Shown here in pieces: positions 30,051 to 49,142 of a stretch of DNA of 64,000 bases. Location of the stretch: assembly GCA_022539475.1 (NCBI GenBank), contig VCMS01000359.1, positions 1 through 64,000 on the forward strand, read 5' to 3'. A program made the translations under genes and the position numbers. This DNA is from Gracilaria domingensis. Lineage: Eukaryota > Rhodophyta > Florideophyceae > Gracilariales > Gracilariaceae. The notes below the pieces were generated by a model that was given only the letters and a program-made list of their open reading frames with translations, did not search any database and was not told the origin of the DNA. Within the stretch, counting starts at the first letter, position 1; each line of letters opens with the position of its first letter.

Positions 30051-30930
30051 ATGATGATCCTCGTTTTTATGCTTTTGCTGCTGTCGACTGCGCTTTGGCT
30101 TGTTAGAAAGCCCCTGCATCCGCTCCATTTTTTCGGCGAGCAGCCCCCCTCCTTGTCTCAAGTCGAATCTAACACAGGAATCTGAACCCAGAACGATCTA
30201 CTAGCATCCGCAATCAACCTACCACAAAACCCAAAGCTTGTTTCACCAGAAACTGCATTTGTTCGCGATTCTGACTGCAAGAAATTCGTCACTGACGCGC
30301 GTGGAATCATCTGGACCGTAGCTCAAAACAGGTCAGCATATAAACCTTACGCAGTTACTGGGGGTGCATTGCTAGGCGATGCTTTTGATCCCTAAACTGG
30401 GGCCCTCTATGTACGCGACTCTACACATGGCATTCTTCGGGTGCCGCCCGATCCGAGCAAAGCTCATACAGAGATTGTGGCTCCTGCATTGTCGTCCGAT
30501 CCATTAGATGAAATCACCTATTGCGATGACGTACATGTAACCTCTGATGGGAAAGTGTACTTCACATCTGTCACCAAGCTGTTCCCACAACGCGACATGC
30601 ATATCCCTCATTCTAACACGTACGGAACATATGTCTCAGACGTCTTGTACGGCTCTCCATCTGTGCGCCTACTTCTGTATGATCCAGAAACAATGGAAAC
30701 CACACAACTTGCAGACGGTATAGCCTTTGCCAACGGAATTGCGGTACATCCTAGCGGCAACTACGCTCTCTTTGCAGAAACTACGACCATGAAAATTTGG
30801 AAGGTATGGCTCCGAGGTGACAAGTGTGGCGAGAGACAAGTGCTGGTAGAACTGCTAGGTTTTCCTGATGGAATCTCATATGACTCTGTGGGAAAGCAGT
30901 TTTGGGTAACCCTCTACGGCGTCTGTCTCT
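30051..30930 (+). pseudogene. Strictosidine-synthase-like / APMAP-family beta-propeller, 3'-truncated
   Basis: A single reading frame runs from ATG 30,051 to the element junction, interrupted only by TGA at 30,183 and TAA at 30,393. It opens with an uncharged membrane anchor (MMILVFMLLLLSTALWLV), as in APMAP-type proteins. Family landmarks follow: NPKLVSPETAFVRDSD, ARGIIWTVAQ, PYAVTGGALLGDAFDP, GALYVRDSTHGILRV, LLLYDPETMETTQLADGIAF, ANGIAVHPSGNYALFAET and GFPDGISYDSVGKQFWVTL. About 290 residues remain, against roughly 370 or more in family members. The missing C-terminal blades lie beyond about 30,919, where shared element sequence begins, so the reading frame continues into element DNA. The frame is otherwise well kept, so inactivation is probably recent. 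Confidence 0.8.
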
Positions 30931-31214
30931 TGCAGATGCTAGTTTTTGGCGAGGGTCGTCCAGAAATTGGCAAGGGTCGTCCAGTAAATTTTTTGAAAAA
31001 ATATCGAGATCAATTATTTCAAAATCTGCAGATAATTGCTTGGGTCGTCCAGAATCGCTGTGCAGTAAATACTGGTGGGTTTTCCACTCGTGCTAGTTCT
31101 TTAGTCGAGGGCTACCTGAACTGTATTTCGCGAAGCCTAGGTTCAGTTTCCATTAAGGTGCACATTACACGATACCTTCTGCGGAATGATACCCTGCAAC
31201 GCATGGAATACTAG

Positions 31215-32640
31215 TGCTAGTACAGATGATGCCCATTATGAAATCATACCGTTTTATTCGTATCTATTCTTCTATCGACCGCTTCTGCTAACCACTACTT
31301 CGCTATATTACATGTACCATTTCCCCATGATGGATCGGGTGTAGGCGCAATCTGCGGCAGATGCCGCAGAGGGCACCTGCACCAAATTGCGGTAACGGTA
31401 GAACACATACGCACTCCGAGAGGATGAGGCGCGAAGCGCCTCATCCTCTCCGTTCGTCATGTAGGGAACCATGCCCAGATGCATGGTTCCCTACTTGAGA
31501 AACCTGCACCTGCAACTCGTGAGCTACGTACGCATCAAAAGTCATTTACCTGTATACGCAAGCGGAAAGTATCCATAAGTTAGTCAATGATCCGTTGGAT
31601 ACATTTGAAATGCGATGGAACGTACCATTGATAAAGCAAAACAGAAACGTTGCGCTAGAAAAGTCGAGGGACCTAGTAACTCGCAAAATGAAAAAGAAGA
31701 AGGAAAGGGATCGGTTAGATTACCAGCCCACCATCATCGTAAAGCGCGAAAGGTGTCGAAGCGAGAACTCACAACCAAGGACACCAAGAATGCCCATGCA
31801 GCAAACATACCTCAAGATGCGATAAACGAAAGAGCAGCCTATGTCCCAACCAAGTACCAGAATCGCCTATCCCGAACAGCCAGAGATCGATCTTGAGAGA
31901 CGAAATGAAATTGGTCGTTTTCCTGTATACGCAAGCAGAAAGTATCCATAAGTTAGTCAATGCTCCGTTGGATACAGTTGAAATGCGATAGAACGTACCA
32001 TTGATAAGAGCAAAACAGAAACGTTGCGCTAGAAAAGTCGAGGGACCTAGTAACTCGCAAAAGTAACCCAAAGCCTTTTTCCTGCCGTTTACATGTCGCA
32101 GAGCGCGAAGAGACGTGGTGAGGATTGGTTAGTTTAGAACAAAGATACGTAGAAGGAAATGGAAGCACGTACGAAAAGACTGCATGGAATACATTCGTGA
32201 GATACGGATGCTGTCCGCTTTATGGAGGCGTCCGACGAGGGCGGAGAAAGAGAATGAGGTACGCTTCATGTCCGCTTAATGGAATCCATTCTCAGCACGC
32301 TACTTCGTAATCCGTCGTACTTTTTTCCGCCCTCGAACTTCGTAGCGAGTGCGAGGGCGGAAAAACGTACGACGGAGCGGAGTAGAACGCGAGGATGGCA
32401 CGGATCACGACGGTAACAAAAGGTCGGACGTCGGACGGGCAGGGGCGGCGGCGGAGGGAAGAGATTTATTTTTCTGTGCGAGATTGGACAAGTGTACAGC
32501 GTACAACGTTGGGAAACCAGAGGTTTATAACCAGTGGTAGATAATACGAGAAGTACACCCTTGTGTTGAGGTCGACGTGTACCTACGTTCCTTTTTGAAC
32601 GAAAGCACGTGATCTAAATTCAAAATATATTCTCCGTTCT
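31215..32640. mobile_element. Hairpin-rich tail of element, copy B
   Basis: It holds the same structures as the left arm in mirror order. Hairpins lie at 31,418-31,450 and 31,457-31,498. There is one full 350-bp unit (31,544-31,890) and one truncated unit (31,920-32,066). A stretch with two further imperfect stem elements built on TCCGCTTTATGGA / TCCGCTTAATGGA and the CCGTCGTAC stem follows at about 32,210-32,375. No gene beyond short frames. The 280 bases before the transposase closely match copy A and likely hold its promoter. Confidence 0.75.
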
Positions 32641-32644
32641 CACC

Positions 32645-35600
32645 ATGACGTCGATCTTGACTGTCACTCGACCTCCTTCTCCCTTCTTACGACGTTCTCT
32701 TGCAGTCTTTGTCGTCGTTTCTCGTTCTTTTCTTCTTCCCATGGTCTACTACTGTACACATAAGAAGCGTGGGTGCCCCTTCGTTACTCGCCGAGGAGTC
32801 TTATCTCTTCAACAGCATGTCAACCATTGCCCGTTTCGTCTGAAAGCAGCGCTGGGAGACGACAATAGCCGGGCCATTCGGAGAAGCAAGCGTCTCAAGC
32901 TTTCCGCGCCCGCGCCTGCATCTTCCGAAACGGTCACTGCCCCTTGTCGCCTTCCAGAGCCTCCAGTGTCCGAGGACATCGTCGACCCCACTCCGTGCGC
33001 CCCTCCCATTCCGGACACTTCGCATTGTGTTTCTCCTTCCCCGGGTCCCGCGTCATTAGAGCGAGAACACGGAAGCAGTTCCCGCCCAGTGCCTTCTGAG
33101 GAGGCCCTTGGTGATTTGCATATGGATTATCTCACGGTTTGTCTGGCTTCAGTAGCTTTCAACCTTGGTCATCGTGAGGCGGACGAGCTAATTGGGCTAC
33201 TTCGGGACCCGCGATTCTCGCAAAAGCGATTCAACGAGACCATAACAAGTTCCAAGCGCTGTACAGAACTGAAGAACGCCATTTTCGAACGATACGCCTC
33301 AAAGGACTGTTTCAATCGCAGAACTGTCTCGCCAGAAGGATGTACGTTCAGCGCCACCCTCTACACGAGAGACCCCGTTCAGACACTTGTGAAACAGCTC
33401 CAGTTGGCTAACAACGAAAACACATTCTTCCACCCTATACCTCAGACCCACTCCACGAAAATATCTCACCCCATGTCCGGCTCTCTCGCAAGAGACGCCA
33501 CCTCAAAACTTAAGGAAATGGTCATGGGCTCTTTGGATAGTAGAATAGTGTGGTACTCTCAAGAAATAAGTTACAGTGAATCTTTCGTAGGTCTTCTGCA
33601 GGTATACACCGATAAGTCTTCAACAACTCTAAAGCAAACATCGGTTACCGCCTATCCTCTTCACCTCATATTTCTCAACTTCTCCGACGAGCTTCGCCGT
33701 AAGTGTATCCGTGATGACCTCACAGTAGTGGCATACTTCCCTACCACACTGATCGAGGTTTCCGCATCTGAAGCAGATGCAATGCCATTTGTTTCTAGCA
33801 AGTCTCTACGCCAGTCCAGGATGCAAATCCTTCAAGAATCTCTTCGTCAAGTCCTGGAGCCCATTCTAAATCTCACGCAGAAAGGTTTTCAGTTCATCGG
33901 CGAAGACAAAATAAGTCGAGTTTGCCATCCTCTGCTTGCAAGTTATTGTGCGGATATTCCTGAGGCTAAGGACATTCTGTCCATTCTTCATGGGACCAAA
34001 ACGGAAAGCCCGTGTCATAGATGCAAAGCCCCTCGCTCATCTTTATGCAGTCCTATTCCCACCTCATTCAACGGACGTTCTCAAAAGCACACGAAAAGCA
34101 TCCGAAAGACATACACAGCTATCTTGCAACATGCACAAAAAGACGAGGCGGAAAGACGTCCACGTCGTGCGAGGGAGAGGAGATCTCAAGCGGATACTCT
34201 GATGCGTTCAAATTCCATATCTCTCATTCCTTTGTTCCTCGAAACTTCCGTAAGCCTTGGAATGATCCCGGGATTGTCTCCATACAGTCTGTTCTCATCC
34301 GAACCATTACACAACTTGCATCTCGGCATCTCAAAGTTGATAAAAACGGCCACAATCGAGAGACTGCAGTCAGACACCCTGTGCACCACAATAGGAACAT
34401 CTGCATCGCGTTCATTTCGAACGATACGCACCCAACTCCTCAACCATGCAAACGCAATTCTAGCTGCCATAGAACGCGACTCTCCTGCCAAAGGTTTACA
34501 TATCGATTTCTCCACGCAGGAGAAAGGCAAATCTTTGAATGGTATCTTCACGAAAGACGGTCTCCGTGGAATGCTGGAGGCCAAAAACTACAAAGCACTT
34601 GACATGGTCTTTCCCTTCACAGGAGCATTCTTTGACATATGCTGTGGAGAACAGGACGTTGCCCCAATCACAACCGTTTTCTCTCAGTACTGGGACTTGC
34701 TCTCGACCTTATTCAGATACAATCGTGACCCGTATTGGACTGAAAGCTCTCTCCTGTGTCTTAGTTCGGAGATTGAAGCCTTCAAGCGTTCCGCAACAAA
34801 GACTCTGGCGGATTTTCATCCCCCCAGACTGAGAACTCTGAAGTTTCATCTTCTCGATCATCTCGTGGACGATATTCGCCGTCTGGGAAGTATCAAGTAC
34901 TACGACGCAGGCATATACGACCATGCACACCTGCTATTTAAGAGACACTACAAAAAGACGTCCAGAAGAACAGCAACGGCTGTGGAGGAGACTATTCGCT
35001 CCATTGAGCACGGACATGTTAGAAAGCAATGGAATGGCAATACTCCTTACCAGCGTAATGCAGGTTTACCAGGAACTTCCACACAGCTTCCTCGGTTTGC
35101 AATGAGAGGGCGTTCTTTCACTTTACGAGCTCTTCAACATTGTGTTTCAAGTATGTCCAGTTCAAAAACATGGACTGCTGTTAGAGAAATGTTCTCAAGT
35201 ACGGACACAAGGTCGATTCTTGATCAAATTGGTGAACAGGCCCTTCCTCCTTTCCTCAGTCTCGTGAAAGAAACACTGGATGAGCACTCTATTACATACT
35301 TCCCAGAAAAGACAAGGATAACTCTGGTGAATTCGGCCCTCGTGAAAGGCGGTTTCGTTCCGACTCTTGAACACTTCGATTCGTCTTCTAAGGCACTTAA
35401 GCTGGGACGACCCAAATACCGCATCATCCAACGTGTCTTCGCTTCTCCAGCATTTGGTCCCAGTAGAAAGCCAAAGTTTTCCACTGTATTGGTAAGCGGA
35501 GAAGATTCAGAGACTTGGGCTGCCCAGGTAGTCGCTCTGATTCGAATATCTCTCCTTGATTCTGCACTTACCGCACCAGAGGTGGCATTCGTCCGGTATT

Positions 35601-35920
35601 TCGAGGTTTTACCCCCCGCAACAAACATCGACCACATATTGAAATGCATATCTTTACGGTGGGCTACAAACGATGAAAAGAACCACACTCTTCCGTTCCC
35701 TCGTCATTCCAAAGCGGAGACTATCGTAGAGTTAACTCCTTGGTACGGGATGGTTCCGGCTTCTGCACTACAGGGAACTGTCCATGTTGTTCGATCAAAC
35801 TACCCTGCTCCACCTTTTTGTCCTCCACTTCAATGCTTTCAACACCGATTCTACATCAATCGATTCTATCATGATTCAGATGAAGGACCAACTGAGCACG
35901 TTGATCTTGTACAGCCTTAA
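32645..35920 (+). CDS. Plavaka-type (KDZ/CACTA-related) transposase, copy B
   Basis: An intact frame of 1,091 codons from an ATG in the context CACCATGAC. The downstream ATG at 32,740 (MVYYCTHKK) is the start shared with copy A. The domain order matches copy A: C2HC-type finger at residues ~34-66, a disordered Pro/Ser region to ~155, then the core with VYTDKSSTTLKQTS, HGTKTESPCHRCKAP, EPLHNLHLGISK and KFHLLDHLVDDIRRLGS. Copy B has YDHAHLLF where copy A has YEHAHLLF. That is a conservative change at a position that is usually Glu in the family motif. The stop TAA overlaps the homologous stop site of the coiled-coil gene. Both copies stay open while the companion genes are broken. Confidence 0.85.
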   Translation: MTSILTVTRPPSPFLRRSLAVFVVVSRSFLLPMVYYCTHKKRGCPFVTRRGVLSLQQHVNHCPFRLKAALGDDNSRAIRRSKRLKLSAPAPASSETVTAPCRLPEPPVSEDIVDPTPCAPPIPDTSHCVSPSPGPASLEREHGSSSRPVPSEEALGDLHMDYLTVCLASVAFNLGHREADELIGLLRDPRFSQKRFNETITSSKRCTELKNAIFERYASKDCFNRRTVSPEGCTFSATLYTRDPVQTLVKQLQLANNENTFFHPIPQTHSTKISHPMSGSLARDATSKLKEMVMGSLDSRIVWYSQEISYSESFVGLLQVYTDKSSTTLKQTSVTAYPLHLIFLNFSDELRRKCIRDDLTVVAYFPTTLIEVSASEADAMPFVSSKSLRQSRMQILQESLRQVLEPILNLTQKGFQFIGEDKISRVCHPLLASYCADIPEAKDILSILHGTKTESPCHRCKAPRSSLCSPIPTSFNGRSQKHTKSIRKTYTAILQHAQKDEAERRPRRARERRSQADTLMRSNSISLIPLFLETSVSLGMIPGLSPYSLFSSEPLHNLHLGISKLIKTATIERLQSDTLCTTIGTSASRSFRTIRTQLLNHANAILAAIERDSPAKGLHIDFSTQEKGKSLNGIFTKDGLRGMLEAKNYKALDMVFPFTGAFFDICCGEQDVAPITTVFSQYWDLLSTLFRYNRDPYWTESSLLCLSSEIEAFKRSATKTLADFHPPRLRTLKFHLLDHLVDDIRRLGSIKYYDAGIYDHAHLLFKRHYKKTSRRTATAVEETIRSIEHGHVRKQWNGNTPYQRNAGLPGTSTQLPRFAMRGRSFTLRALQHCVSSMSSSKTWTAVREMFSSTDTRSILDQIGEQALPPFLSLVKETLDEHSITYFPEKTRITLVNSALVKGGFVPTLEHFDSSSKALKLGRPKYRIIQRVFASPAFGPSRKPKFSTVLVSGEDSETWAAQVVALIRISLLDSALTAPEVAFVRYFEVLPPATNIDHILKCISLRWATNDEKNHTLPFPRHSKAETIVELTPWYGMVPASALQGTVHVVRSNYPAPPFCPPLQCFQHRFYINRFYHDSDEGPTEHVDLVQP

Positions 35921-38311
35921 ACATTAAGGGCTCCATCCTCTACATGTTCACCTTGTGGTGCCTTTTCTTGTGATCCTGTGTTAATTCCGAAATCGTTCAT
36001 GTCCATTTCCTTGAACTCCATATCCCCTTCCTCGCATTCACCAACGAAGCAATCGCTAATAGACCCCAATCTTCGGCTCACACTGTCAATAAAAATTGTT
36101 CTTTCACAGTGAGGTAAAGTCCTCCGTTCGACGGCATTCGATATCCAAATGTAGCCTCTCTCATGTCATTACCAAGAACCTTAGTCCAATCTTCCGTTGT
36201 CGTTCCAAAATTATGAAACTCGCTGGAATTGGTCCTCAAGACACGTTGCCTAACATCCCCCAGAACATTCCTTAAACACAGAGGTAGCAGTTCGGCAAAC
36301 TTCTTTGTAAACAGTTTCTGTCTCTGGCCACCCCTTGACACATTCGTACTTAGAAGGCTCACAACCGTCAACACCCAAGCGTCCAAACGTGCGAGCAACA
36401 GTATTGTGCCATCTAAAAAGGTGCCCGTATCCTTGTCTTCCACATCATACCCAATAAACTCCTTCAGCACTTGTACCACGACACGGTTTCGGAAGAACAA
36501 GTCTTGATCTTCCGTCGGCATATCCTCGACATTGTCCGCATTGGAGTACTTTAGACGAACAAATGGGGCTTTTCTCCACCATGAAGTGTTCGGTACACCA
36601 TTTTCGTCAACACGCAGTATGTTCTCCTGCGCTTCCTTCAACTGCATTGTGAGTTCGTCAGCATTCTCTTCTACCAGCTTTGTTCTTCTCCAAATCAGAT
36701 CGTACCCCAGGAGCAGAAATAGTTTATCCCTCGTATTTCTCTTACGAACGCCCACGACGTCACTCATGGTCTGCCGCATTCTCTGCCTAAGGCACATATC
36801 TGCACAAAGTTCCAGTATACACCTGTCGGTAAGAGATGCTTTTCTAATACCTTCCCAGCTCAACTCCTTCAACTCGCTTTCAACCATTTTCTTCAGCAAA
36901 GCATTTGGCCCCCCCTCTACCGACGGTGTGAACATGCCAAAACTGCCCAAGAGCTCCACGGGGTTTTTAGGAACCATGTATGAACCACCTTCCTCCGGCT
37001 CAATAAGCCCTTCCCCACTCTCAGTTGCGTCTTCCACCTTCTCGGCACGGTTACCCCAATTTCGGGTGAGCGACTCACCTTCGAGCCATAGCTCACTTGT
37101 TTCTCTCCTTGCCCACGTCAGCATGTTGTGATACACTGCTCGAGCAACCACTCGAAACTCGTCGCACACCTCAATTTTATGCTTCTTTCGACCTGTCTGC
37201 CCAGGTTCACCAGCACGTGTACTCCTATCTCCCTCCTGTTTCAGTGCCCCTCTTAGCCCTTCAATGACTAGATCCTTCTCTTCAAGCCTCTTTTTCAAAG
37301 CCGTACTCTGCTCTTGGGCGACCTTCACTAGAATTCCCCGAACCATCAAGTCCTCTTGTAGCGTCTTAACCTTTTCTTTCAAGCAATTCAGTTCATTTAA
37401 AAGATCAGGTCTGTTCATAGAGCTTGAATTCACACCAGTTTGGATATCTTCCGTTATTTCCCTAGCTTCTTCGGCGACAGGCCCCGGTAATGCCGCAGGA
37501 TTCGGTGTTATTTCGTTATCGGAACTATCCTCATGTGCCATAGCCTTAGACACGAGAGGCTGCAGGCATTCTGTGTCCACCCTTGGCACGGCTCCGAGCT
37601 CCAACTCCCGTTTCTGTCCTCCTCCATGGCATGGTATATCAGATGAATTGGGCCTCGTACGAGCTGCAACGGCCCCCGTTCTGGAAAGAGGGGAAGATCG
37701 AAAAGTAACTCGTCTATCAGTTGTCTCTCGATTTCTTATTGTCTTTCTTCCTTGTCCGGACCCATTGCGAGGCATGATACGGTTCATAGCGGCCCCAGTT
37801 CTAGAAGACAGGGATGGACGTGACGATCTTAATATACTAGGGCTCTCACGACTTCTCGTCATTGTCCCTTGTTGTCCAGATCCACTGGGCGGCGTAACCC
37901 GCGCCCCAGTAGCTCCGGTCTTCGATATCGGCCGGGGACATGAAGGTTTTGGTGTCATACGAACCTCTTCGGTTCCAGTTGTCATGCCCTCCTGTCCTGA
38001 CCCGCTGGGCCGAGTTACCTCATCTTCTTGAGGAGCAGAGACAGATGCACGATTTGCATTATCGGCAGTTGACGGCACGACCTCGTTCGCTGATCCACGA
38101 ATTCTTGACGCAATCCCGAAGACGCTCCGCTGCGAGATGGGCGAGAGAGTCCTGTAGAAGGACGCTCACTGACTCTCTCCTTCGTCGAGGACAACTTCCG
38201 TTTAGGAAGTGCGGTGGTTGTAGCCTGATTCGTATCATCCGATGCTCTTCTCTTCTTCTGTCGACTCTTGTTCCGATGCGTACTATTTCGCTTTCTCGGC
38301 GTTATACCCAT
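35917..38311 (-). pseudogene. Element-encoded basic/coiled-coil protein, copy B (two frame breaks)
   Basis: The ATG is at 38,311 (MGITPRKRNSTHRNKS). The basic N-terminus is separated from the main frame by one missing base near 38,110 (CTTCGGG against CTTCCGGG in copy A). The main frame then runs open from 38,078 to 36,078 (666 codons) through the Ser/Pro/Arg-rich region, the coiled coil and most of the globular C-terminus. A five-T run near 36,090 (six T in copy A) ends it about 50 residues before the stop used by copy A. Copy B keeps in one frame the two stretches that are shifted in copy A. Function unknown. The likely role is an accessory to transposition or chromatin binding. Confidence 0.7.
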
Positions 38312-38339
38312 GTTGTGGAGATAAACAGGGTAATGAAAC

Positions 38340-38378
38340 GAAATTGTTGGGGAGGGGGGAGGGGGTGGGGGGGGGTGC
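38340..38378. repeat. G/C homopolymer-rich leader of the coiled-coil gene
   Basis: On the minus strand this is an almost pure C tract with few T/A interruptions, followed by AACAATTTCGTTTCATTACCC and a CCACAA just before the ATG. In copy A the equivalent sequence ends in CCACAG, a possible intron acceptor. The tract length differs between copies, as expected of an unstable homopolymer. Confidence 0.6.
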
Positions 38379-38557
38379 ATGGTTCAGATATTCCGGGAGA
38401 CTCCGCAGTTCCTGCTTTTTAGGAATTTGAGGTGCCCAATGGGTCGCAAATATCGCCGTTACAGATGAAGAGCTCCAGTGTACATGTACAACAACGCGTA
38501 TTGCAGGCAGCTGCAACACTCACAAGCATATTTACTTTCTATTGGTACTGAACTCAT

Positions 38558-41500
38558 CTATTGCTCCAATGTCAGAGCCCAGTCCCAGGCGTACTGCTCT
38601 CCGTAGTTGAAATACAACTCTTCGCCCCTCTCAATATCTCTTACAGCTCTACAACGAAGTAGAGCATAGTTAGAAAGGTCTGACTTGAACTGTATCACGG
38701 ACTTCGCTTCCACGACCTGCACATTGGCACTTCGAGTCCTGTTTGACCGGGGCTCCGATAAATCGGGATCCCCGGCATGATATCCGGCGTTGTTAATGTA
38801 GCCCCCGATACAAAAAGGCGCCGGGACAATGTAGACTTCGCTCTCCTTTCTATCCTGAGCCTGTCCTGGTCTGTTCCTCAGGTGCAGAAACTCCGTACCA
38901 GTCACAGTGACCATCATAGAAAACAACTTGTACCGCACTGGAGTTGCTCCGAGACAGCCACTTCCATACGTTAAGTGTCTTTCTTTCCGGTTCGTCAGAT
39001 CCGTGTATACCAAAGTTCCATAGAAATGACAGATAGTTTCCCCAGCCAATATCTTATGTTCCGTGAACACCCCCATACCAGCACGGGGATGTCGAATCTT
39101 AGAAGATGCTATATGTAAGCGATAGCGATTGGCTTCAACAGTCAACAGCATATGCATATCCATAAGATTCAGAGCTCCTCGGTACTTCCCCTCCCAAAGA
39201 TCTACAGTACGCTGTCCACACTTCTCGACAAAGTCCCAGTCCTTCCAGTATCTTCCTAGGAACTGAGTAATATGTCCAGGCATCACTTGGTACTGGGGGT
39301 AACCAAATGGAGCCTCCCATTCAAGCCGACCTCGGTCCCGATGTGGAACCCGTTCATAGGTCGTTGAAGCCGCATCCACCACCTCCTGTTCAACCAGGAT
39401 GTCATTCTTCCCCCCGCGAATAACTTCGGCCATAAGAGTCGTTAGATGGTGCTTCGCATGGCTGAAACATGGCCTATTCTTCTCGCACCCCAAGAACTTC
39501 CTATGCTTTGTCAGCGATAGGCACGCCATACCCGTAGAAAAAGTTCCCGCGAACATGTCCATGACAAGATCACCCGGTCTTGTGAAGCGACATATCAACT
39601 CCTTCATCAACTCCCTCGACTTCTGCTCCGGTCTTATGTACTGCCCACCTGGTACTGAACTACCTGGCTCATGTACCTTCCATGTCAACCACTCCCCCGC
39701 TCTCGGTTTGGGCACCCGGTCAATTACATTCCTGTTAGCCGGGAAAGTGGAAGGAATGAAATTGTTCTCCTCAAATGGAGTAAGACTGGCTTCCTCCGAT
39801 GGTCGCAATCCACGCTTCACCCCATGAACGGCGTACTCCGTTACGGGCTATATCCCAAACTTCCGTGGATTCCCTCCAACATTACTGCGATCCCGGATGA
39901 ACACCAGTGGATTCGCATCCACTTTAAACGAAGGCATGAGTTCTGGTTTACCTTCGCTTCCAGCTTCATCTTTCGTACTCGCCGTTTCCGAAAGTATCCT
40001 GTGCCACACATGAAACTGTGCCATGGCACAGAATATAATGAAGTGCCCACCTGACCGAAGCGCGGAACTTATTAAGTCAGCCGTACGGATCATGTCTTCC
40101 TCACTGAAGACATCGTGACCACTATTCCGTTTGTTCCTCTTCCTTCGAGTGTTAAAGGGAGGGTCTGTTAGGACAAGCTGTGCCTCACCCCATAAAATCT
40201 CACTCTGATTCACAAACGTTTCGTGTGTGTGCCTCAGGTCCTTCATGTCACAGTTGTACGCTACAAAGTGTGACTTTCTCATCCCCTTCCACACCTTGTC
40301 CATATTCATTCGAAGGAGACTGGATATCCCCTTCATGGGCGGCTCAATACCAGTCTTTTGGATGTTGTAACCGGCAACCCGAGATTCATGCTCCGCAAGA
40401 TTCACCGGCTTCTCGAACTCGTCGCTATCGGAGCTCACGAGGTTCATATACTCTCGACGAGGTGGGGGTGGGGCAGACTTGGTCGAAGAAGGTTCGGCAT
40501 TACCGGAAGTTTTAGGGGTTTTCGTCAGTTCAATATCAGGTTTCGCGTGAATGCCGACATGGAACCCTGCCGCATGACGCATATCCTGTATCGGTTTCCA
40601 TAGCAACTCCGAAAACTTCTGAAATCGAGCAGGCAACTCACCGGAGTCAGAGCTAGATACGGTATCCATCCGTATCTCCGAAAACTCTATCCAGTTCCTC
40701 ATCTGATCAACCCGTAAGCTATAGAGGCTATCGTGGGTGCATATGGTTTCGAGGTCTGTCAAAAACTCCTTAGCCAGTATTCGCAGGTTTGTATCGCATT
40801 CATCACTCAAGGTCTCCACCGATCCACTAGTACTGCTCTGTGGCACATCCTTTGTGTTGAATCGAGTACTCTGGCTCGGCGGGGCATAACCAGACTCCCG
40901 TGTCTCTAGCGCTGTATACTTCAACGTCTGCATATTCATGTAAATGTATGGTTTCACCATGTGCTGAACGTTCGTGTATCCAAGATGAGCCGCAAAACAA
41001 CTCCATGCCCATACGACCTCACTGATAGCGAATCCCAGTCGATCACAGTTGTCTTTGGAGAACGACGTAAAAGTGGGTATGTACACAGATGGTGCATGGT
41101 TCACTTTTCGTTTCTTTTTCGGTTGTTTCTTCTTCATCATCGGATGTTGTCGTTCTCTCCCATTATNTGGCCGAGGTATGAATAAGTAATACGACCTCAA
41201 ATGGGTTCACAGCTGTTGTGGGATGAACACTGTCGTCTTCAGAACCTGCTTTCTCCTGGTCATGAAATAACCAACCAGGCATCGCACCGGTAGGTATATA
41301 CCCATATCCATAGAGAGAAGGAAAAAATCGCGGAGACTCTGGTCCTCATCCCCGTCCTTCTTGTCAAGAAGCTTCGTTACAAGATATCGTTGTTCCACAG
41401 GTTTGTTATTCACAACACTCTTTCGCAGCTGTTGCAGTGTCAAGTTCTGCAGGTTCTTGGAGTTAGTGGCCTCCTCAAACATCTTCCTTGCCTCCGGAAT

Positions 41501-41691
41501 ATCCTTATAGTTCTCGGCGCAGAACTCTATTAACCCTCTAAACCCCACGTCCCGTGGCGATCAGGGCCTCCATCGCTGTTTGCCAAAGCATCGCGAAGAA
41601 CCAAGAAAAGTCTGACATATGCATGGAACGCCGGAGGCGGAGCACTCATGTCGATAGGATGTATCTCCTCTCCAACATCGGTGGAATCCAT
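38558..41691 (-). pseudogene. DNA methyltransferase-SET domain fusion, copy B
   Basis: The probable start is the ATG at 41,691 (MDSTDVGEEIHPIDM), only about 20 bp from the palindrome. The N-terminal ~170 residues are unrecognised (GLIEFCAENYKDIPEARKMFEEA) and interrupted near 41,545 by a frame change and by TGA at 41,207-41,209. A Lys-rich stretch (KKKQPKKKRK) follows, then the beta-class methyltransferase with DPPF and DMFAGTFSTG, and the SET domain ending GEELYFNYG (copy A has YFDYG). A TAG at 39,848-39,850 replaces the CAG Gln codon of copy A. Methyltransferase and SET are in one frame here, which proves the fusion. Base 41,166 is N, so the TGA region may be unreliable. SET acts on protein Lys and the methyltransferase on DNA. 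Both targets are unknown. Confidence 0.8.
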
Positions 41692-42039
41692 CGCTTCAGC
41701 GCAAACAACGGAGGCGAGCCTTTAAATGGCGACTTACGCTGGGCACCCCCGCTTTCGGCAGCTCCTCCCAGCGCACTGCCAGTCTCGTCCGTGTCCGTGT
41801 CCGCTCGGAGCGATAGGCGGTGGGCGATAGCGTCGCGTGTCGGAGCGATAGCGTCGCGTGTCGGCCACGTCGCGATTCGGAGCTATTGCAACGGTCCCGT
41901 ATTGTGCTAAAAGTCGCGGATCAAGTGGGTGTGAAGCGCTAGTTTTCTCTAGTTTGATATATGTGCACGGCGTGTGCAGCGAAATCACTGCCGGAAGTGC
42001 CGGGAGGAGTGTTTTGGGAGGTCTCCGGAAGGCGCCGGA

Positions 42040-42720
42040 ATGTGGCCAGAACGTGCCCGCGGGCGGGAGGGGTCGGTCGTGTTAGGGTAGCTACCCTAAC
42101 ACGACCGGACCCCCCCGCCCGCGGGCATAAAATCGCACATTTTTCAAAAAATCGCCAAAACGTGCCCGCGGGCGGGGGGGTCCAGTCGTGTTAGGGTAGC
42201 TACCCTAACACGACCGACCCCCCCCGCCCGCGCGCACGTTTTGGACGATTTTTTGACACCCTCCGGAGACCTCCCAAAACACTCCTCCCGGCACTTCCTG
42301 TACCCACTGCGTCACCTCAGTGCACCATCCCGGAAATTAGGGAGTGTCTGGAGGGTGAGAAGACGGGATGGTCACCTCAGTGCACCATCCCGGAAATTAG
42401 GGAGTGTCTGGAGGGTGAAGATGACGGGATGGTGCACTAAGGTGACGCAGTGGGTACAGGAAGTGCCGGGAGGAGTGTTTTGGGAGGTCTCCGGAGGGTG
42501 CCAAAAATCGTCCAAAACGTGCCCGCGGGCGGGGGAGGTCGGTCGTGTTAGGGTAGCTACCCTAACACGACCGACCCCCCCCCGCCCGCGGCACGTTTTG
42601 GGCGATTTTTTGAAAAATGTGCGATTTTATGCCCGCGGGCGGGGGGGTCCGGTCGTGTTAGGGTACCTACCCTAACACGACCGACCCCCCCCGCCCGCGG
42701 GCACGTTCTGGCCACATTCT
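42040..42720. repeat. Four cruciform modules in the palindrome
   Basis: Each module has a 34-bp palindrome whose core is TTAGGGTAGCTACCCTAA, at 42,074-42,107, 42,183-42,216, 42,540-42,573 and 42,650-42,683 (the last with a GTACC variant centre). Each core is flanked by inverted G-run/C-run blocks and by the 10-bp palindrome GCCCGCGGGC next to ACGTG or CACGT. Each full module can fold into a hairpin of about 40 bp. Two modules lie on each side of the large palindrome's axis. Confidence 0.9.
42311..42430. repeat. 60-bp direct repeat at the palindrome axis
   Basis: Two head-to-tail copies (42,311-42,370 and 42,371-42,430) share GTCACCTCAGTGCACCATCC and GGAAATTAGGGAGTGTCTGG. They occupy the loop of the large palindrome, the only part that is direct rather than inverted. 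Confidence 0.9.
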
Positions 42721-43127
42721 GGCACCTTCCCGGGACCTCGCAAAACACGCCGCCGCGCAGTGATTTCGCTACACCCGGCCGCCGGTACGTTGGCGCCGCT
42801 GTCCACGTGTATTTGCGGGAGTAGGCTGTACATGGAAGTGAATGAGTGTACTCTTGACTACTATGCAAAGCATTTGAAGAGCATGATTGAGAACGCGACC
42901 ATTGCTCGCGTGAGTCATCATTGCGCGAACTCCACGACTCTAAAGCGTACAATCAGTGTGCGAGCGGCCACGGACAGGACACGGACGAGACTGGCAGTGC
43001 GCTGGGAGGAGCTGCCGAAAGCGGGGGTGCCCAGCGTAAGTCGCCATTTAAAGGCTCGCTCCGTTCTTGTATCGTCCAGAGCGAGCGTATTGTTGATATA
43101 CACCTTTCACTGCAATAGCTGTTCAAC

Positions 43128-43823
43128 ATGAAGCCAACTCGTGTTCGAAAGCGTACGCAAAGCGTGACTCCTCGCACTCGGCGGAGCACTCGATTATTGC
43201 AAGGTGGAATGCGGGTTTCTCTGCAGATGGATATTGAGGATGAAGGAAAGGTGATAGTCGGGGAAGCGTTGTTGCATGGAATTGGAAGTGTTCTACGCCG
43301 CGAGTTGCACGGGAAGCAATTGGACCCAGGTCTTGTGGTGGTTCATAATATTCTCATCAGTCGAAGCGGTCAGACGTTCTACCCTTACCGGGCGGAGGGC
43401 CTGGATCTTCCACAATATATCCAGGATCTCCGGACGGCCGCTCCTTGGGATGAGAAAATGATGGAACCGGTGGCAGCCAGCATTCCGGCGTCGAAGCGAG
43501 GAACGGTGAGCGCTATGAGTGAGGTGATGACGCCGACAAGCCGCACGGAGCCAATTCGAAGTTCATCAACACCGAGAGGTAGCGCATCAGTAGCACCTCC
43601 GCGGGCAGGTCCGTCGTCTGTTACGAAGCGGTCTATGGAGACGAGAGCATCCCCAGCTACGAAGCGGACAGGTCAAACAGAGTCTACCTCCGCTACGAAG
43701 CCCACTGCGTCGAAAAGGGCTTCTCCTGCGATGAATCAGACCGTCGACACAAGGGGATCTTCTGCGTCGAAACAGACGGTTCAGCAGGGACGGCTGTGCA
43801 AGAGGAGGAAGATGAGATCATGA
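43128..43823 (+). CDS. Basic Ser/Thr/Lys-rich protein, start of the divergent unit
   Basis: The ATG at 43,128 follows the palindrome. The first ~20 residues are basic (MKPTRVRKRTQS). A globular stretch, about residues 25-110, follows (MRVSLQMDIEDEGKVIVGEALLHGIGSVL...FYPYRAEGLDLPQYIQDLR). From about residue 120 comes a disordered region with repeated TKR/SATK-type motifs. The frame ends at 43,823 while the next frame is already open, so this is probably the N-terminal part of one larger protein with the ParB-like segment rather than a separate gene. No family was recognised. Confidence 0.5.
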   Translation: MKPTRVRKRTQSVTPRTRRSTRLLQGGMRVSLQMDIEDEGKVIVGEALLHGIGSVLRRELHGKQLDPGLVVVHNILISRSGQTFYPYRAEGLDLPQYIQDLRTAAPWDEKMMEPVAASIPASKRGTVSAMSEVMTPTSRTEPIRSSSTPRGSASVAPPRAGPSSVTKRSMETRASPATKRTGQTESTSATKPTASKRASPAMNQTVDTRGSSASKQTVQQGRLCKRRKMRS

Positions 43824-44891
43824 AAGGTCCCCTTCCAGACGCGGATGCGCAATCCGCGCAAGGAGCTGGTCCATCTGTACCCCAAACTGCACCAGAAACT
43901 GCGGAGCAGCAGGACGATGACGTTGTGTTTCTGTCCGCAAGAATGGCACGTTCAAGTGTTTCTGGCGAGCGGTCTGGAACACAAGGGACACCTACTCGGA
44001 GCAAGACGTACAGACGAATTCGTCAGAAGGTACCAAAGGTGAACCTCAATTACTACCGGATGGTTGTTGTTACTGTTGACATCACTCTGGTGGACACTCC
44101 GCCCAATTTACTCCGTGGAGTAAGTAGACGCCACGTTGAAGCCCTTGTGAAGAGTATGGAGGAGCGGGGGATATTTCAGTCGATGGGTTCTCCAGTGGTG
44201 GCCTTACAAGATGCTACTACGGGAGAGAGGGATACTGACAAGGGACGCCTAACGAAGAAGTGCTTCATTGTAGATGGTTTGCATCGTCTGAAAGCTATAC
44301 AATATTTGGCAGCGACTGGTGCACCGAAGTGGAAGCGATTAGCAAGTTTTGGCGTTGCAATCTGCTGATACGAAGAGATGGGAGACCCATTGGGATGAAG
44401 GAATTGTTATGTGTTGCTCGTACCTCAATGAGTCGACGAGTACCATGCGAAGGATGATGTTTGCAGACAAGATACACTCTATAGTTAGTGTGGTCGCCAT
44501 TCTAATTGAAGATGTTGAGGGGGTGACGCCGGCAGACGTGGATCCTGCAGAAGTGACAGAAGTGTTGAAGGAGAGCCAACTGATTGGGACTGTGCAAGAG
44601 CGTCAGTACCTGAGATATGCCAATGTCGCCCTGCAACTCATGTCTCGTGAGGGAATGCTGGCCCATTTCGAGGATATATGTGAGACTGTGAGTGACATAG
44701 GTCTCACACATCTGTCCCATACTCCGCTATATGTTTTGGATGCCGAGGAGTTTTCCTTCATTCTTGATTGTCTTCAGATGTTTCTATTGAAGGGCAAGTC
44801 GACGAAGACAAAGCAATGGAAAAGCTTTGAGGAGGTTCGAGGTTTCTTTTATGATAGAGCAGTTCTCTGTTCCGCGCGGCTAGAGCAGTGA
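43796..44891 (+). CDS. ParB/sulfiredoxin-like domain protein (two overlapping frames)
   Basis: The frame 43,796-44,368 has an acidic start (EEEDEIMKGPLPDADAQ) and then a ParB-like fold: GVSRRHVEALVKSMEERGIFQS and, after a variable loop, the signature VDGLHRLKAIQYLAATG, equivalent to the G-E/D-x-R-x-x-A box of ParB-type domains. A second frame (44,349-44,891) carries on with a helical domain (TMRRMMFADKIHSIVSVVAIL; LREYANVAL-like helices), which is typical of the helical region after ParB boxes. The frames join near 44,360 and the second ends at TGA 44,889-44,891, overlapping the next frame by 4 nt. ParB-fold domains bind or cut DNA or hydrolyse CTP. Which applies here is unknown. One-base indels may have split a single gene. 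Confidence 0.55.
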
Positions 44892-47041
44892 GGAATGAAC
44901 TGAACGAGGAAGAGTCCATGGAAGTGTTCCTGAAACGCGAAGTCAGTCTTTCTGCCCCATCGAATGAAGATGACGTTGAAGACCCAGACAACAACGCAGC
45001 TGTGTATCAGTTCCTTTTGGGACAAGTTGTGAACTTCAACACATTGCCGCGTGTTCGGAGCAGGACGAGCTCAATTAGAACTGCCACGACTTCCGTTCAG
45101 AATCGATTGCGGACGATGCTCAAGGTAATTCCGCCCCCCGCACCAGTGAAGCAGTCCGTGACGAAGAGGAGGACTCCCGCTGCTGCTGCTGCAACATCTG
45201 CCAGTGAAGAAGGGGAGCCGCGAAGAAGTGCACGAGAACGGGCGCAGGTGAGTTATAGGGAAATTGAGCACGGCCGAAATCGAGGTGCCATAGAAGTTCT
45301 GGATAGCTCTGAAGAAGAACAGCGGGCTCCGCCGAGGAAGAAACGGAGAAAGACTTTCACACAACAGATGAGATCTACTCTGAACAGCATGACACCGGAT
45401 GACCTGATGTCTCAACTAAATGAACATGTGCTGAGAGGAAGGTCGATGAAGGTTCAGTTCGTGGCATTGGGAGAGGGAGCGAATGCAGAGAACGCAGGCA
45501 GTTCTGCATTTGTGGATGACGATGAGCTTCTTTCTGTGACAGTTCCACGGGTTGTCACCGTCGAGAAAGATGCTGCGCCAGACGATCAGCAAGAGACAGG
45601 TGGGGGGTCATTTGATGACGAGTTACCTACAGCTCTTCCGGAATATGAGGAGCACGGACTTGTTCGAGGTGACCCATATGATGGCCCACCGAACCCATCA
45701 TGGTGCGGGTATGCCAGGCTGAGACCGCAGGAATGGCAAGGGAAGAACGTAATTGAGCACAAGGACCCCTGGCTCAGAGTCATTCACTTGCCGAAGGGAC
45801 ATAGGTCGGAGCTGCTAAGTGTCTCGAATCTCAGAGATGTACACCATCTTGTCTTTTGGCACGCTGCAAGGGCTGAACATCGCCTACGGGCGGAGACATT
45901 TGGTATGCAGTATCCCCGTACTCGACCGACAGGTATGGATGATGAAGAGGTGCTGTGGGTTGCTGCGAAGGAGCATGACGAATTTGGGCAAATGTTCTTC
46001 GCCCGAATGCAAGCTGAGCTAAGGCAGAATGGATATTGCGTGCTTGATGGTTTTGCGACGGATAATGGTGTCCCTAAATGGGAGGAGTTGGAAGAAGTTC
46101 GGGAGTTCGGAGATGTGTCGGGGAAGTTGGTGGACTTCTTCGAGAATGAGTATGGAGCGATGCCGGATATACGGAAAGGAGAGGAACAGAAGTCGTTTGT
46201 TCAAATAATCAACGATGATGAAGGATGGAAGGACGGTAGCGATGGACCATTTGAGGGGAGAGTGATGTCGACACGTTGGGGTACGGTGGAGAAGCCGGAG
46301 GATAATGAGGAGCTCAGGTGGGTTGTAAGGTCGCGTGCTTTACTTGATGTTCGAATGGGTACAATTGCTGCGGCTTTGGGACTATGGGACAATGAAAGGG
46401 AAGCTGTGAAGATGTACACTCCGAAAACTGGTGGTCGATTTCTGGGGACGACGAGAAAGTGCAAGCGCCAGACGCTGCACACCGACTTCAGTGGTCTGGT
46501 TACGAAGGAAACAATGAATACTGGCAACCCCGGATACTTTGTAATGGCCTATGGGAAAGAGGGCTTTCCTCTCTGGGTGAGCGCTGGAAGCCATCAACTG
46601 GTGGGGATGAACAACCAACAGTTGCGAGTGATGTCGGAGGTGTATCCAGCGAAGAAGATAATCATCCCACCGTACTCTGTATTCGTGGGCCGTGGTGATG
46701 TGACACATGCTGGAGCAAGTGGGAAGGACAAGGTGGATAGGCCCGAGTCTATGGATTTGCTGGTTAGATACCACATGTACATGGTACCAGAGGGCTACGC
46801 ACTACCTGATGCTGTTCATCGGGTGCGGGATTTCCGACCCACGTTTGTCAATGGTGACGAGGAGAAGGAGGCGGAGGATGAACTGTTGTCCGATAAGGAG
46901 GGTGGGGTGGTTGACATGGACGAAGACCAAGTGGTCGTGGAGATTGGTGTGGAAGCGGACGCCGGTAGAACCGAAGTGCTCGAGAGTAGTAGTGATGACG
47001 ATTTGCCAATAATGAGGCTGCGAGCGCCTCGAAGTGGATGA
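44888..47041 (+). CDS. 2-oxoglutarate/Fe(II) dioxygenase-like protein
   Basis: The frame opens with GTG in a GTGA overlap with the previous stop. The first ATG is at 44,918. Residues 1-300 are acidic or basic and disordered, with NLS-like KKRRKTF. A conserved-looking region from about residue 290 (NPSWCGYARLRPQEWQG) precedes a double-stranded beta-helix domain at about residues 500-640. It has the metal ligands LHTDF (H-x-D) and GDVTHAG (distal His), and the cosubstrate-type Arg in LLVRYHMY. Around these are TTRKCKRQ, PGYFVMAYG, PLWVSAGSHQL and IPPYSVFVGRGD. All three iron ligands are present. This is the layout of TET/JBP- and AlkB-like enzymes, but the exact subfamily is not determined. DNA, RNA or protein could be the substrate. 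The C-terminus is acidic. Confidence 0.7.
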   Translation: MRNELNEEESMEVFLKREVSLSAPSNEDDVEDPDNNAAVYQFLLGQVVNFNTLPRVRSRTSSIRTATTSVQNRLRTMLKVIPPPAPVKQSVTKRRTPAAAAATSASEEGEPRRSARERAQVSYREIEHGRNRGAIEVLDSSEEEQRAPPRKKRRKTFTQQMRSTLNSMTPDDLMSQLNEHVLRGRSMKVQFVALGEGANAENAGSSAFVDDDELLSVTVPRVVTVEKDAAPDDQQETGGGSFDDELPTALPEYEEHGLVRGDPYDGPPNPSWCGYARLRPQEWQGKNVIEHKDPWLRVIHLPKGHRSELLSVSNLRDVHHLVFWHAARAEHRLRAETFGMQYPRTRPTGMDDEEVLWVAAKEHDEFGQMFFARMQAELRQNGYCVLDGFATDNGVPKWEELEEVREFGDVSGKLVDFFENEYGAMPDIRKGEEQKSFVQIINDDEGWKDGSDGPFEGRVMSTRWGTVEKPEDNEELRWVVRSRALLDVRMGTIAAALGLWDNEREAVKMYTPKTGGRFLGTTRKCKRQTLHTDFSGLVTKETMNTGNPGYFVMAYGKEGFPLWVSAGSHQLVGMNNQQLRVMSEVYPAKKIIIPPYSVFVGRGDVTHAGASGKDKVDRPESMDLLVRYHMYMVPEGYALPDAVHRVRDFRPTFVNGDEEKEAEDELLSDKEGGVVDMDEDQVVVEIGVEADAGRTEVLESSSDDDLPIMRLRAPRSG

Positions 47042-47305
47042 GAATGAGATGATTAGTAAACTATGTGTGTCTTGCGAGTATTAAGAGTAGTATACTATTA
47101 CAAGGCTATACATATGAACATAGAAAAGGTGCGGCAGGCTGGTAATTGAACAAATGCCAAACGTCTTTGATCCAGTTGCGTCTAATTGCAACATGCCAAA
47201 TGCTCGGTATCGTTAACATCATTGGTGGCACCAGTCAATTCGCAATTGAACATGTAGCGTCCTAACATTTCTGAAACTGCACTTAAGGTTGCTCTTAAGA
47301 GAAGT

Positions 47306-48217
47306 ATGAAACTGAGAAGTCTATACAGTTCCTGTCTATGCGGTACTTGTGGCAGTATGGTGACTGTATCAGGAAAAATGGCAGAGGAACAGAGAGACTT
47401 GGCAGAAATTTCACCAAATATCTTGTCTAAGTTCATATATGCCAATGGTTACGGTATATTAAGTTCCGTTGATGGAACGTTGAGAAGAGAAGGAGAGTCA
47501 ATTCCAGAAGAAGTTGTGAAGTGTATGAAGTTCATTGACGAACGTGTTGGTTTCGGACTTGTAACAGGGGGTGATGTGGGCGACGTGGAGGGGAAAATGG
47601 AAGGACTCGGAGACTATAAGTTTGGTGTCTCGGCGAATCATGGAGCTTTCCTGCGTTTCTCTGACGAGAGGGAAATTAAGGGTGCATTCAATGATCACAC
47701 CCTTGACCACACTGTTGACGGACTACTGTTCCTGGCAAGGGATTTGAATAGGAGGCATGGTATTGTGAATGATGATGACAAGGGGTTCGTGGAGACCAGA
47801 AGTGATAGTGGCCTTCCCAATTTCGTGTACAACAAACTGTGGCAGTGGAAGGAAGAAGTGGATTCTGCTATTGGGGACCTGTTGCAGAAGATGGATGCGT
47901 TTGTTATCTATCCCGGCGATAAAAGTTGCGAAATTGTGGACAAGCGATACACAAAAGGAAGCGGAGGAGAAAATCTTGTGGATAATGAACCGAGATTTAT
48001 TGATACGGATGACGTCGTGACGTTCGGAAGTGCTTTCAGCGACGGGCCTTTGCATGAGGTAGGCGTGTACGGCGTTCACGTCAAAGAAGATTGTATCCCG
48101 GGTGGAGTACACAACCTGTTCGAAAGCGTGGAGGATGTACATTCGACAATTATGTTGGTGGCTCTGTTGTACGGCTACGAGGAAAAGCAGCACGATAAAA
48201 ACCACCATGATTCATAA
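47306..48217 (+). CDS. HAD-family phosphatase-like protein lacking the nucleophile
   Basis: Open frame of 303 aa. The HAD type-IIB layout is clear: motif I region ILSSVDGTLRREG, motif II VGFGLVTGGD, and motif IV TFGSAFSDGPLHE. It is closely related to the convergent neighbour, which reads VISDVDGTLKRAG and VAFGNASNDGPLYE. At 47,465-47,467 a TCC Ser replaces the nucleophile Asp of DxD, and both Asn of motif IV GNxxND are Ser here. Catalysis by the usual aspartyl-phosphate route should therefore be lost. The 28-residue N-terminal extension contains two Cys (SSCLCGTCG). Substrates in this family are sugar phosphates such as trehalose-6-phosphate, but the paralogue's substrate is unknown. It could be a regulator or sugar-phosphate sensor. 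Confidence 0.7.
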   Translation: MKLRSLYSSCLCGTCGSMVTVSGKMAEEQRDLAEISPNILSKFIYANGYGILSSVDGTLRREGESIPEEVVKCMKFIDERVGFGLVTGGDVGDVEGKMEGLGDYKFGVSANHGAFLRFSDEREIKGAFNDHTLDHTVDGLLFLARDLNRRHGIVNDDDKGFVETRSDSGLPNFVYNKLWQWKEEVDSAIGDLLQKMDAFVIYPGDKSCEIVDKRYTKGSGGENLVDNEPRFIDTDDVVTFGSAFSDGPLHEVGVYGVHVKEDCIPGGVHNLFESVEDVHSTIMLVALLYGYEEKQHDKNHHDS

Positions 48218-48269
48218 AAGGGTATTGAGATATATACGACACTTTTATTACTGAGATCTCATATCATAG

Positions 48270-49142
48270 CTAAGTATTAAAGGCATCGTAGCACTTGAAA
48301 CAAATTCCAAGAGCATTTCTAAACCATTGACACTTGCATTTTCTGTACCCGTACAGTTCTGCCACCCTTCTGATGGTCTCATGCACGTCCTCCACCCCAT
48401 CAACAAGATATGTTACCGCTGGTGGAGGGTCGTCTCCCTTCACATGAACTGCGAGGGTTGCCATTTCATATAGAGGACCATCATTGGAAGCATTCCCGAA
48501 AGCAACGATTAAATGTGTGTCGAACTGGGGGTCGTTTTCAACCAAGGCTAGCGCCCCACTATTTTTCGTGAAACGAATGTCCCCTATGTCACAGTTTTCA
48601 TCTTGCGGGTACGCAACCAGGTTCGGAAAGGATGTCAACACTTTTGAAATACCGGAGTTAGCTTCTGTTTTCCACTTCGACAGTCCATTGTACGTGAAGT
48701 TAGGGAGTCCACTGTCTTTTCTAGTGCTCACCACTGCTTGTTGACGCTCTTCGTGAAGTCCGTGCGATTCATTTAAGGAGAGTGCAAGTCTCTCAAGTTC
48801 GGCTGCACATCTTTCGTAGCCTTCCCTGTCAAGGTCCTGATCAATTTCGGTACCATTGGATAATCTCACCCGTGCGCCTTGGTTTCCAGAGATGCCAAAA
48901 GTGTAGCCACCCAGGTGCTCCATGAAACTCTCGGCATCCTCTATATCTCGCTCAGTAGCAATTCCGAAACCAACGAGTGCGTTGATGTACTTCATGCATT
49001 TGACTGTTTCGGCAGGAATGTTCTCCCCAGCTCTTTTCAGAGTACCGTCAACATCACTAATCACGGCGTAGCCTTTTTCGAATATTTCGTTAGCCAGCTG
49101 CTGAGGAGTTACTTCTTGGGCTCTAACTTCTGAGTTATACAT
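48270..49142 (-). CDS. HAD-family (type IIB, trehalose/sugar-phosphate phosphatase-like) protein
   Basis: 290 aa from ATG 49,142. Motif I is SDVDGTLKR (nucleophile Asp and general acid Asp present). Motif II is VGFGIATERD. A Lys is found in IRFTKNSGA, and motif IV is FGNASNDGPLYEMA. Length and order fit Cof/trehalose-phosphatase-type HAD IIB enzymes. A ~50-residue Cys-containing tail (YRKCKCQWFRNALGICFKCYD) could bind metal and is absent from the paralogue. It converges with its paralogue with about 50 bp between stops, so the pair arose by inverted duplication. No signal peptide, so probably cytosolic. The specific substrate is unknown. Confidence 0.75.
   Translation of the reverse strand: MYNSEVRAQEVTPQQLANEIFEKGYAVISDVDGTLKRAGENIPAETVKCMKYINALVGFGIATERDIEDAESFMEHLGGYTFGISGNQGARVRLSNGTEIDQDLDREGYERCAAELERLALSLNESHGLHEERQQAVVSTRKDSGLPNFTYNGLSKWKTEANSGISKVLTSFPNLVAYPQDENCDIGDIRFTKNSGALALVENDPQFDTHLIVAFGNASNDGPLYEMATLAVHVKGDDPPPAVTYLVDGVEDVHETIRRVAELYGYRKCKCQWFRNALGICFKCYDAFNT

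Follow-up and report, generated by a model that had tools for sequence, protein, structure and literature searches.

A Plavaka-type DNA transposon of the red alga Gracilaria domingensis with a predicted adenine-methylase-SET gene and a putative ParB-dioxygenase gene

Introduction

Some transposons are already known to carry a single gene that acts on epigenetic marks, and excerpts of PMC12730594 describe those most similar to the case reported here. In Agaricales fungi, such as Agaricus bisporus and Gymnopus confluens, TET genes are carried by Plavaka transposons that make target duplications of 2–3 bp, while SET genes are cited there for the HarbingerS and MuDR transposons of the oomycete Phytophthora. 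A further parallel is N4CMT of bdelloid rotifers, a captured bacterial PF01555 methylase that acts together with histone methylation (PMC8885841, excerpts). The present subject is a Plavaka-type DNA transposon of 22,471 bp from the red alga Gracilaria domingensis, located in the first 64,000 nucleotides of contig VCMS01000359.1 (C359), a stretch hereafter called the window. It carries a gene for a predicted adenine-N6 DNA methylase fused to a SET domain and, facing away from it, a gene for a ParB-like fold fused to a putative 2-oxoglutarate (2OG)-Fe(II) dioxygenase.

The algal element shares with the TET-positive fungal elements a Plavaka-type transposase, 2-bp target duplications and an oxygenase gene inside. 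It differs from them in its red-algal host, in its oxygenase, which lacks a TET/JBP match and is fused to a ParB fold, in the added adenine-methylase-SET gene, and in its terminal letters, CGTCTG..CAGACG, which do not match the TGT..ACA or CATCA..TGATG termini of fungal PlavakaA and PlavakaB. With the Phytophthora elements it shares the presence of a SET histone-methyltransferase gene in a DNA transposon; those, however, use other transposase superfamilies, and a fusion of SET to a DNA methylase is not mentioned for them in the excerpted passage. With N4CMT, the methylase has in common that it is a eukaryotic PF01555 protein, a bacterial-type amino-methylase of the beta class joined to a chromatin domain, but N4CMT is a captured host gene with N4-cytosine specificity and a chromodomain reader, whereas the algal protein has a SET writer.

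We found no report of an adenine-methylase-SET gene and a ParB-oxygenase gene in one Plavaka-type transposon, a variant of the known epigenetically armed transposons. No red-algal account of this element or gene combination was among the matches listed from open-licence PMC, which does not establish absence, and the excerpts of a Gracilaria sex-chromosome paper (PMC12502185) do not mention Plavaka. There is good support for the element and for the set of genes in it, and it may alter the chromatin marks by which elements of this kind are normally silenced.

The transposase, the ends and the copies

The transposase matches PF18759 with 69.3 bits (E 4.6e-19; cut-off 26.3) and its second copy in the window with 68.2 bits, and the frame is long and open in both, in agreement with the preliminary description of this DNA, which had named a Plavaka-type transposase. 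It contains CHRC at residue 457 and HLLDH at residue 735, corresponding to the C(2)C and H(3–4)H motifs that are part of the definition of Plavaka (PMC12730594, excerpts). The same excerpts group Plavaka with the CACTA/EnSpm-type transposons and find no similarity to KDZ. Target duplications of 2–3 bp and terminal inverted repeats also belong to the Plavaka picture, and here the inverted ends are imperfect and 15 bp long and 2-bp duplications flank the 10-kb end pairs. The element is a Plavaka/CMC-type DNA transposon. Membership in KDZ, the group with which it had first been compared, was ruled out, as only Plavaka was reported for the transposase at E ≤ 0.1 by Pfam, which we take to include a KDZ transposase model.

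The coordinates of all features are collected in Table 1.

Table 1. Features of the transposon and its second copy in the window.
Feature	Position	Strand	Basis
Whole transposon, Plavaka-type	30920..53390	+	Left and right boundaries from copy comparison; adjoins strictosidine-synthase-like reading frame
Left end CGTCTGTCTCTTGCA, imperfect terminal inverted repeat of 15 bp	30920..30934	+	Boundary from retrieved copies
Plavaka transposase, 1,091 aa from ATG, C2C and H3H motifs	32645..35920	+	Pfam PF18759, motifs
Coiled-coil-like protein (by eye), 695-aa open frame	36078..38165	-	Open frame
Beta-class DNA N6-adenine methyltransferase-type domain and SET in one protein (intact length 1,045 aa)	38558..41691	-	Pfam, motifs
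Central imperfect palindrome between divergent genes, four 18-bp cores	41704..43068		Self-comparison of window
ParB/sulfiredoxin-fold and 2OG-Fe(II) dioxygenase protein (putative), 1,305 aa when intact	43128..47041	+	Fold search, motifs, intact copies
HAD-IIB (Cof-type) hydrolase-like gene	47258..48217	+	PF08282, 22.7 bits against 20.9
Second HAD-IIB hydrolase-like gene	48270..49340	-	PF08282, 43.9 bits against 20.9
Possible Rossmann-type NAD(P)-binding protein	49770..51017	-	GRGRIG motif
Right-end gene, family unassigned, broken in window (start approximate)	52025..52952	+	Open frames; 309 aa in 10.3-kb derivative
Right end TGCAGAACACAGACG, imperfect inverted match to left end	53376..53390	+	Boundary from retrieved copies
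Inverted second copy of left half, cut by contig start	1..10424	-	Self-comparison of window, end match

The G. domingensis assembly that was searched comprises 77.9 Mb in 680 contigs. All eight left ends in the retrieved loci, six from ten chosen copies and two from nested elements, begin at the equivalent of 30,920, and three right ends stop at 53,390. The chosen copies without a left end are those of C264, which lies at a contig end, of C230, truncated at window-equivalent 35,043, of C114, for which the retrieved piece was too short, and a second, rearranged copy on C359. The right part varies among the ten, with about 1 kb missing in C378 and an inverted piece in C262. The element had at first been given a limit of 47,041, and its true end thus lies 6.3 kb further on, with more genes in between. 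At up to two mismatches, the genome holds 561 left ends and 572 right ends, while the reversed-pattern controls gave none for either; sites for the modules number 267 for the transposase, 211 for the methylase, 235 for the dioxygenase and 283 for HAD. Many matches fall at contig ends, and the idea that copies cluster at chromosome ends was dropped, because assemblies tend to break at long repeats and numerous copies are found in contig interiors.

Within the window, the transposase, coiled-coil and methyltransferase-SET genes had been described as duplicated as one unit, and 30,919–41,048 indeed recurs in inverted orientation at 16–10,424, with long segments 96–100% alike and a patch at about 31.5–32.4 kb that is 90–95% alike. 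This left copy is cut as noted, the window edge being the start of the contig. The left end of the complete element interrupts a strictosidine-synthase/SMP-30-like reading frame (30,396–30,919, Pfam PF03088).

Linkage of the right-hand unit

The preliminary description assigned the ParB-dioxygenase unit to the element on the strength of the palindrome, and the assignment was borne out by linkage in the genome. The comparison used 46 of the 211 methylase sites (exact, on contigs up to C169) against the exact dioxygenase sites listed for contigs up to C169; nine were too near a contig start, leaving 37 testable. At 23 of these an exact dioxygenase site lies 3–10 kb away on the expected side, most often near the predicted 7.4 kb, and at none does it lie on the wrong side. 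The other 14 have no exact dioxygenase site, which may be due to contig ends, deletions, insertions or sequence changes. From the opposite direction, an exact right end is found 6.1–6.8 kb downstream of nine of 16 dioxygenase copies (contigs up to C67) and is missing at seven.

Copies that end at or before the palindrome with no dioxygenase attached were also looked for. Seven of the ten retrieved copies run through the palindrome into the ParB-dioxygenase gene, and the other three are interrupted there by other mobile elements, namely long terminal repeat (LTR)-retrotransposon-like sequences in C264 and C192 (L010 and L014, recognised by eye) and a related Plavaka element in C419. That the ParB-dioxygenase unit belongs to the transposon is supported by these observations. 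Alternative right-hand units in C264 and C192 were ruled out, the frames at the palindrome being LTR-retrotransposon-like; the palindrome region is possibly a preferred landing site for such insertions. Linkage of the two genes probably extends to another organism, since the sources of P0013 (a ParB-dioxygenase relative) and P0033 (a methylase-SET relative) both have four contigs, the longest of 20,528 bases, and the two probably share a contig.

Integrity of the 22-kb class

Flanks of 2 bp were compared for 20 end pairs, three near 10.3 kb and 17 longer (13–24 kb). All three short pairs have matching flanks (CA, TG and AA), and a copy nested within another copy, where the interrupted sequence is known, duplicates CT. 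Among the long pairs, four of 17 match, against about one expected by chance (1 in 16), with P(4 or more) about 0.02; one of the four, the 21.4-kb element of C6, holds the dioxygenase gene. Alignment of copies, which the preliminary description had called for, thus gave termini and, for the short copies, target duplications, but few duplications for the long ones. The flank mismatches are the main weakness of the structural case, and they may stem from long repeats that are nearly identical and were joined in assembly or have recombined.

Such a record could also be read to mean that the 22-kb class is not one transposon but a chimera, put together from shorter elements in assembly or by recombination, especially as the window copy itself has no matching flanks. 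This is highly improbable in view of the matches at all short pairs and at the nested copy, the excess over chance among the long pairs, the C6 element with its dioxygenase gene, and the structure of a 10.3-kb copy in C26. That copy, flanked by TG/TG, consists of segments 30,920–33,582, 40,644–41,816, the palindrome region, 42,520–44,266 and 49,501–53,390, in this order. Both ends and the central region are retained, together with the starts of the two divergent genes and fragments of three others (transposase, Rossmann-like and right-end); the 695-aa gene and the two HAD genes are gone. With colinear parts of five genes of the 22-kb element, this copy is an internal deletion derivative of the latter. 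The 10.3-kb copies were therefore rejected as a separate family for C26, the sole copy that was read completely.

The central palindrome

The shared palindrome proposed at the outset was recovered as an imperfect inverted repeat between the start codons of the methylase-SET gene (41,691) and the ParB-dioxygenase gene (43,128). The two inner arms agree at 94% of 332 columns and the outer ones at 97% of 100, and the repeat contains four cores of the form TTAGGGTA[G/C]CTACCCTAA at 42,082, 42,191, 42,548 and 42,658. The outer arms mirror the 5' flanks of the two genes, which suggests joint control of both, because both have these mirrored flanks. A scan of the centre for sigma-70 promoters, which are not apt for a eukaryote, gave nothing.

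With one mismatch allowed, the genome has 1,149 sites for the 26-bp palindrome core and none for its reversed control. Each of the 50 exact cores listed (contigs C2–C37) has an exact element end no more than 15 kb away, and 32 of them are inside an end pair, a proximity for which no chance level was computed. A scan of 50 exact left ends (contigs up to C37) gave 28 with a right end within 26 kb; the exact 26-mer is present in 14 of these paired elements and in none of the seven longer than 19 kb. At up to one mismatch, the core is found one to five times in all ten retrieved right sides and four times in the window copy.

A different reading is transposition control, with the Dam control of bacterial transposons as a parallel. 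Here the state of methylation, together with a ParB clamp on the central palindrome, would govern excision or the timing of replication in cis and would not affect host silencing. The 10.3-kb derivative, which has kept the ends and the palindrome region and lost most of its coding sequence, would suit such a role, as far as one copy read can tell, and so would the nearness of the listed cores to element ends. The presence of the exact 26-mer in just half of the paired elements, and in none of those over 19 kb, speaks against it, though copies do have the core at up to one mismatch; control of this kind also gives no need for a SET domain. We regard it as quite unlikely and favour an action of the two gene products on chromatin, as set out below.

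The methyltransferase-SET gene

The fusion of a DNA methyltransferase to SET that had been proposed was confirmed in its domains, both of which exceed their Pfam cut-offs in the window and in an intact copy (SET: PF00856, 32–34 bits against 22.4). The window copy itself is broken, by a stop codon within the frame at 39,848 and by a loss of frame near 41.2 kb. An intact frame of 1,045 aa is present elsewhere in the genome (L049), and a stop-free frame of 1,055 codons was found in nine of the 99 methyltransferase matches listed (98 of 736 candidates scored). A third copy of the gene lies on the same contig at 99,267–101,869, outside the window.

The methylase domain has a DPP[YF] motif ahead of motif I and a CcrM-like fold, and looks like an adenine-N6 DNA methylase. 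SET domains usually read NH at a site where N is found in 23 and D in 22 of the 25 aligned relatives; the catalytic Tyr is present in 23 of 25. By its domain match and this Tyr, the SET part is a putative lysine methyltransferase. The earlier view of one writer for DNA and one for protein lysine can thus be kept at the level of domains, with the DNA writer specified as a probable adenine-N6 enzyme.

The alignment comprised 25 database relatives and one Gracilaria protein. Of these relatives, 19 carry both PF01555 and SET in precomputed Pfam annotation. P0035 from Chondrus crispus, an 'adenine specific DNA methyltransferase' of 1,000 aa, resembles the G. domingensis protein and was compared as a protein only; P0055 from Pyropia has no SET in Pfam. 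The Chondrus protein and the many other relatives suggest an old and widespread system. The pooled ratio of nonsynonymous to synonymous changes (pN/pS), measured against intact frames and biased in that many copies were chosen by similarity to the window, is 0.26 for methylase-SET over three copies, which have 15 synonymous changes and 14 of other kinds. It is 0.46 for the first half of that gene (11 copies) and 0.74 for the transposase (six copies). Because of the values of 0.26 and 0.46, the methylase-SET gene looks maintained by selection.

The ParB-dioxygenase gene

What had been described as a ParB-like and a 2OG/Fe(II) dioxygenase unit is a single protein of 1,305 aa, as seen from intact frames in two copies. 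The window frame shifts three times between 43.6 and 44.9 kb, and a stop-free frame of 1,308 codons was found in two of the 61 dioxygenase matches listed (61 of 837 candidates scored). P0012, a G. domingensis protein, is a 99% match to the gene, with 49% of the query covered. Both folds were judged on a model of the homologue P0013, which is 48% identical over the dioxygenase region, and both found support there.

In a viral fold search with this model, ParB/Spo0J and ParB/Srx models rank at the top, and a single-domain ParB match from phage VK48 covers 105 columns at 3.2 Å (E 9.6e-3). A DG-HR motif is present in all 12 relatives that carry the ParB region, each of them with the fusion to the dioxygenase. 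The ParB part therefore probably has a ParB/sulfiredoxin-like fold and may bind DNA, although Pfam reports no ParB match in any of the 19 members of the alignment (16 of 20 relatives and three window pieces). The other part is a putative 2OG-Fe(II) dioxygenase by its fold, its HxD...H motif and its 2OG-binding Arg. A profile search of PDB sequences with the same alignment gave no credible match.

An eraser of methylcytosine of the TET/JBP kind has no sequence support: at E ≤ 1, Pfam, which presumably includes a TET/JBP model, reports no such match in the 19 alignment members or in the intact protein. Nor is TET among the 50 fold matches that each of the two programs listed, lists too short to exclude it. 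Among the relatives, P0023 bears an extra Ulp1-type protease domain, and P0019 (G. domingensis FGB62_382g03) is a second, divergent relative of 36% identity that suggests another element family.

A possible function in marking chromatin

The reading that we prefer, with a probability of roughly 0.45, is that the two proteins would mark and unmark the element and its chromatin for the benefit of the element, as a self-marking kit against silencing. The methylase-SET protein would add adenine-N6 methylation to the DNA of the element and methyl-lysine to a chromatin protein close by, marks of a type that other eukaryotes have in transcription-permissive chromatin. The ParB part might recognise, or load at, the palindromes between the two genes, its putative site by our guess, and bring in an oxygenase that would remove or oxidise a repressive mark; this mark and the SET target are likewise guesses. 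The combined action would keep the transposase gene expressed while copies accumulate. N6-methyladenine (6mA) is associated with H3K4me3 in several eukaryotes (PMC12695648, excerpts).

Several observations weigh against such a function. In the structure, 13 of the 17 long end pairs have unmatched flanks, as has the window copy, and a full stop-free frame is missing from 90 of 99 listed methylase matches and 59 of 61 listed dioxygenase matches. The SET matches do not separate activating from repressive lysine targets, the top-ranking ParB fold matches align over long stretches at a large root-mean-square deviation (9–24 Å), and the main text of the 6mA survey cited above, as excerpted, has no match for 'red alga' or 'rhodophy'. 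The nearest dioxygenase folds among the matches listed are small-molecule enzymes of natural-product metabolism. The pooled pN/pS of ParB-dioxygenase is 1.0 (seven copies), because of which the gene looks neutral within the G. domingensis genome, though its active site is conserved over deep divergence.

The last two points would suit a metabolic cargo of oxygenase, HAD and Rossmann-like genes, in which only methylase-SET is epigenetic and ParB is a passenger domain, and the HAD-IIB hydrolases do adjoin the dioxygenase gene. We find this hard to believe given the retention of the fusion in all 12 ParB-bearing relatives and the mirrored central region that the dioxygenase gene has in common with the methylase gene. 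The ambiguity of the SET target allows another view, self-restraint or the silencing of competitors, in which methylase-SET would write repressive marks on its own family and so limit copy number or fix the family as heterochromatin. This is unlikely: restraint alone leaves the dioxygenase unexplained, and 561–572 ends suggest a poorly restrained family.

Self-marking against silencing can also be extended to a complete, sequence-addressed reprogramming system, in which a bacterial-type adenine methylase fused to a lysine methylase would doubly write the active state and an oxygenase eraser, guided by ParB, would load at an array of parS-like palindromes within the element, so that each insertion would impose its own epigenetic state on the host. 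As a whole, this extension is rather doubtful. A writer of DNA and protein marks paired with an oxygenase on a DNA-binding fold would let one ask whether selfish DNA can impose, and not just escape, an epigenetic state. Such an element could supply 6mA in red algae, and biochemistry would gain a naturally linked methylase-SET enzyme.

Other genes and neighbouring sequence

The 695-aa coiled-coil-like protein has no Pfam match. The two HAD-IIB hydrolase-like genes are convergent inside the transposon (47,258–49,340). The protein that follows them has no Pfam or NCBIfam match, and its GRGRIG sequence is taken by us to be a Rossmann-type NAD(P)-binding motif. To the left of the element, 24,135–27,807 forms a low-GC block of nested tandem and dispersed repeats (spacings of 138 bp and about 853 bp) with strong negative GC skew.

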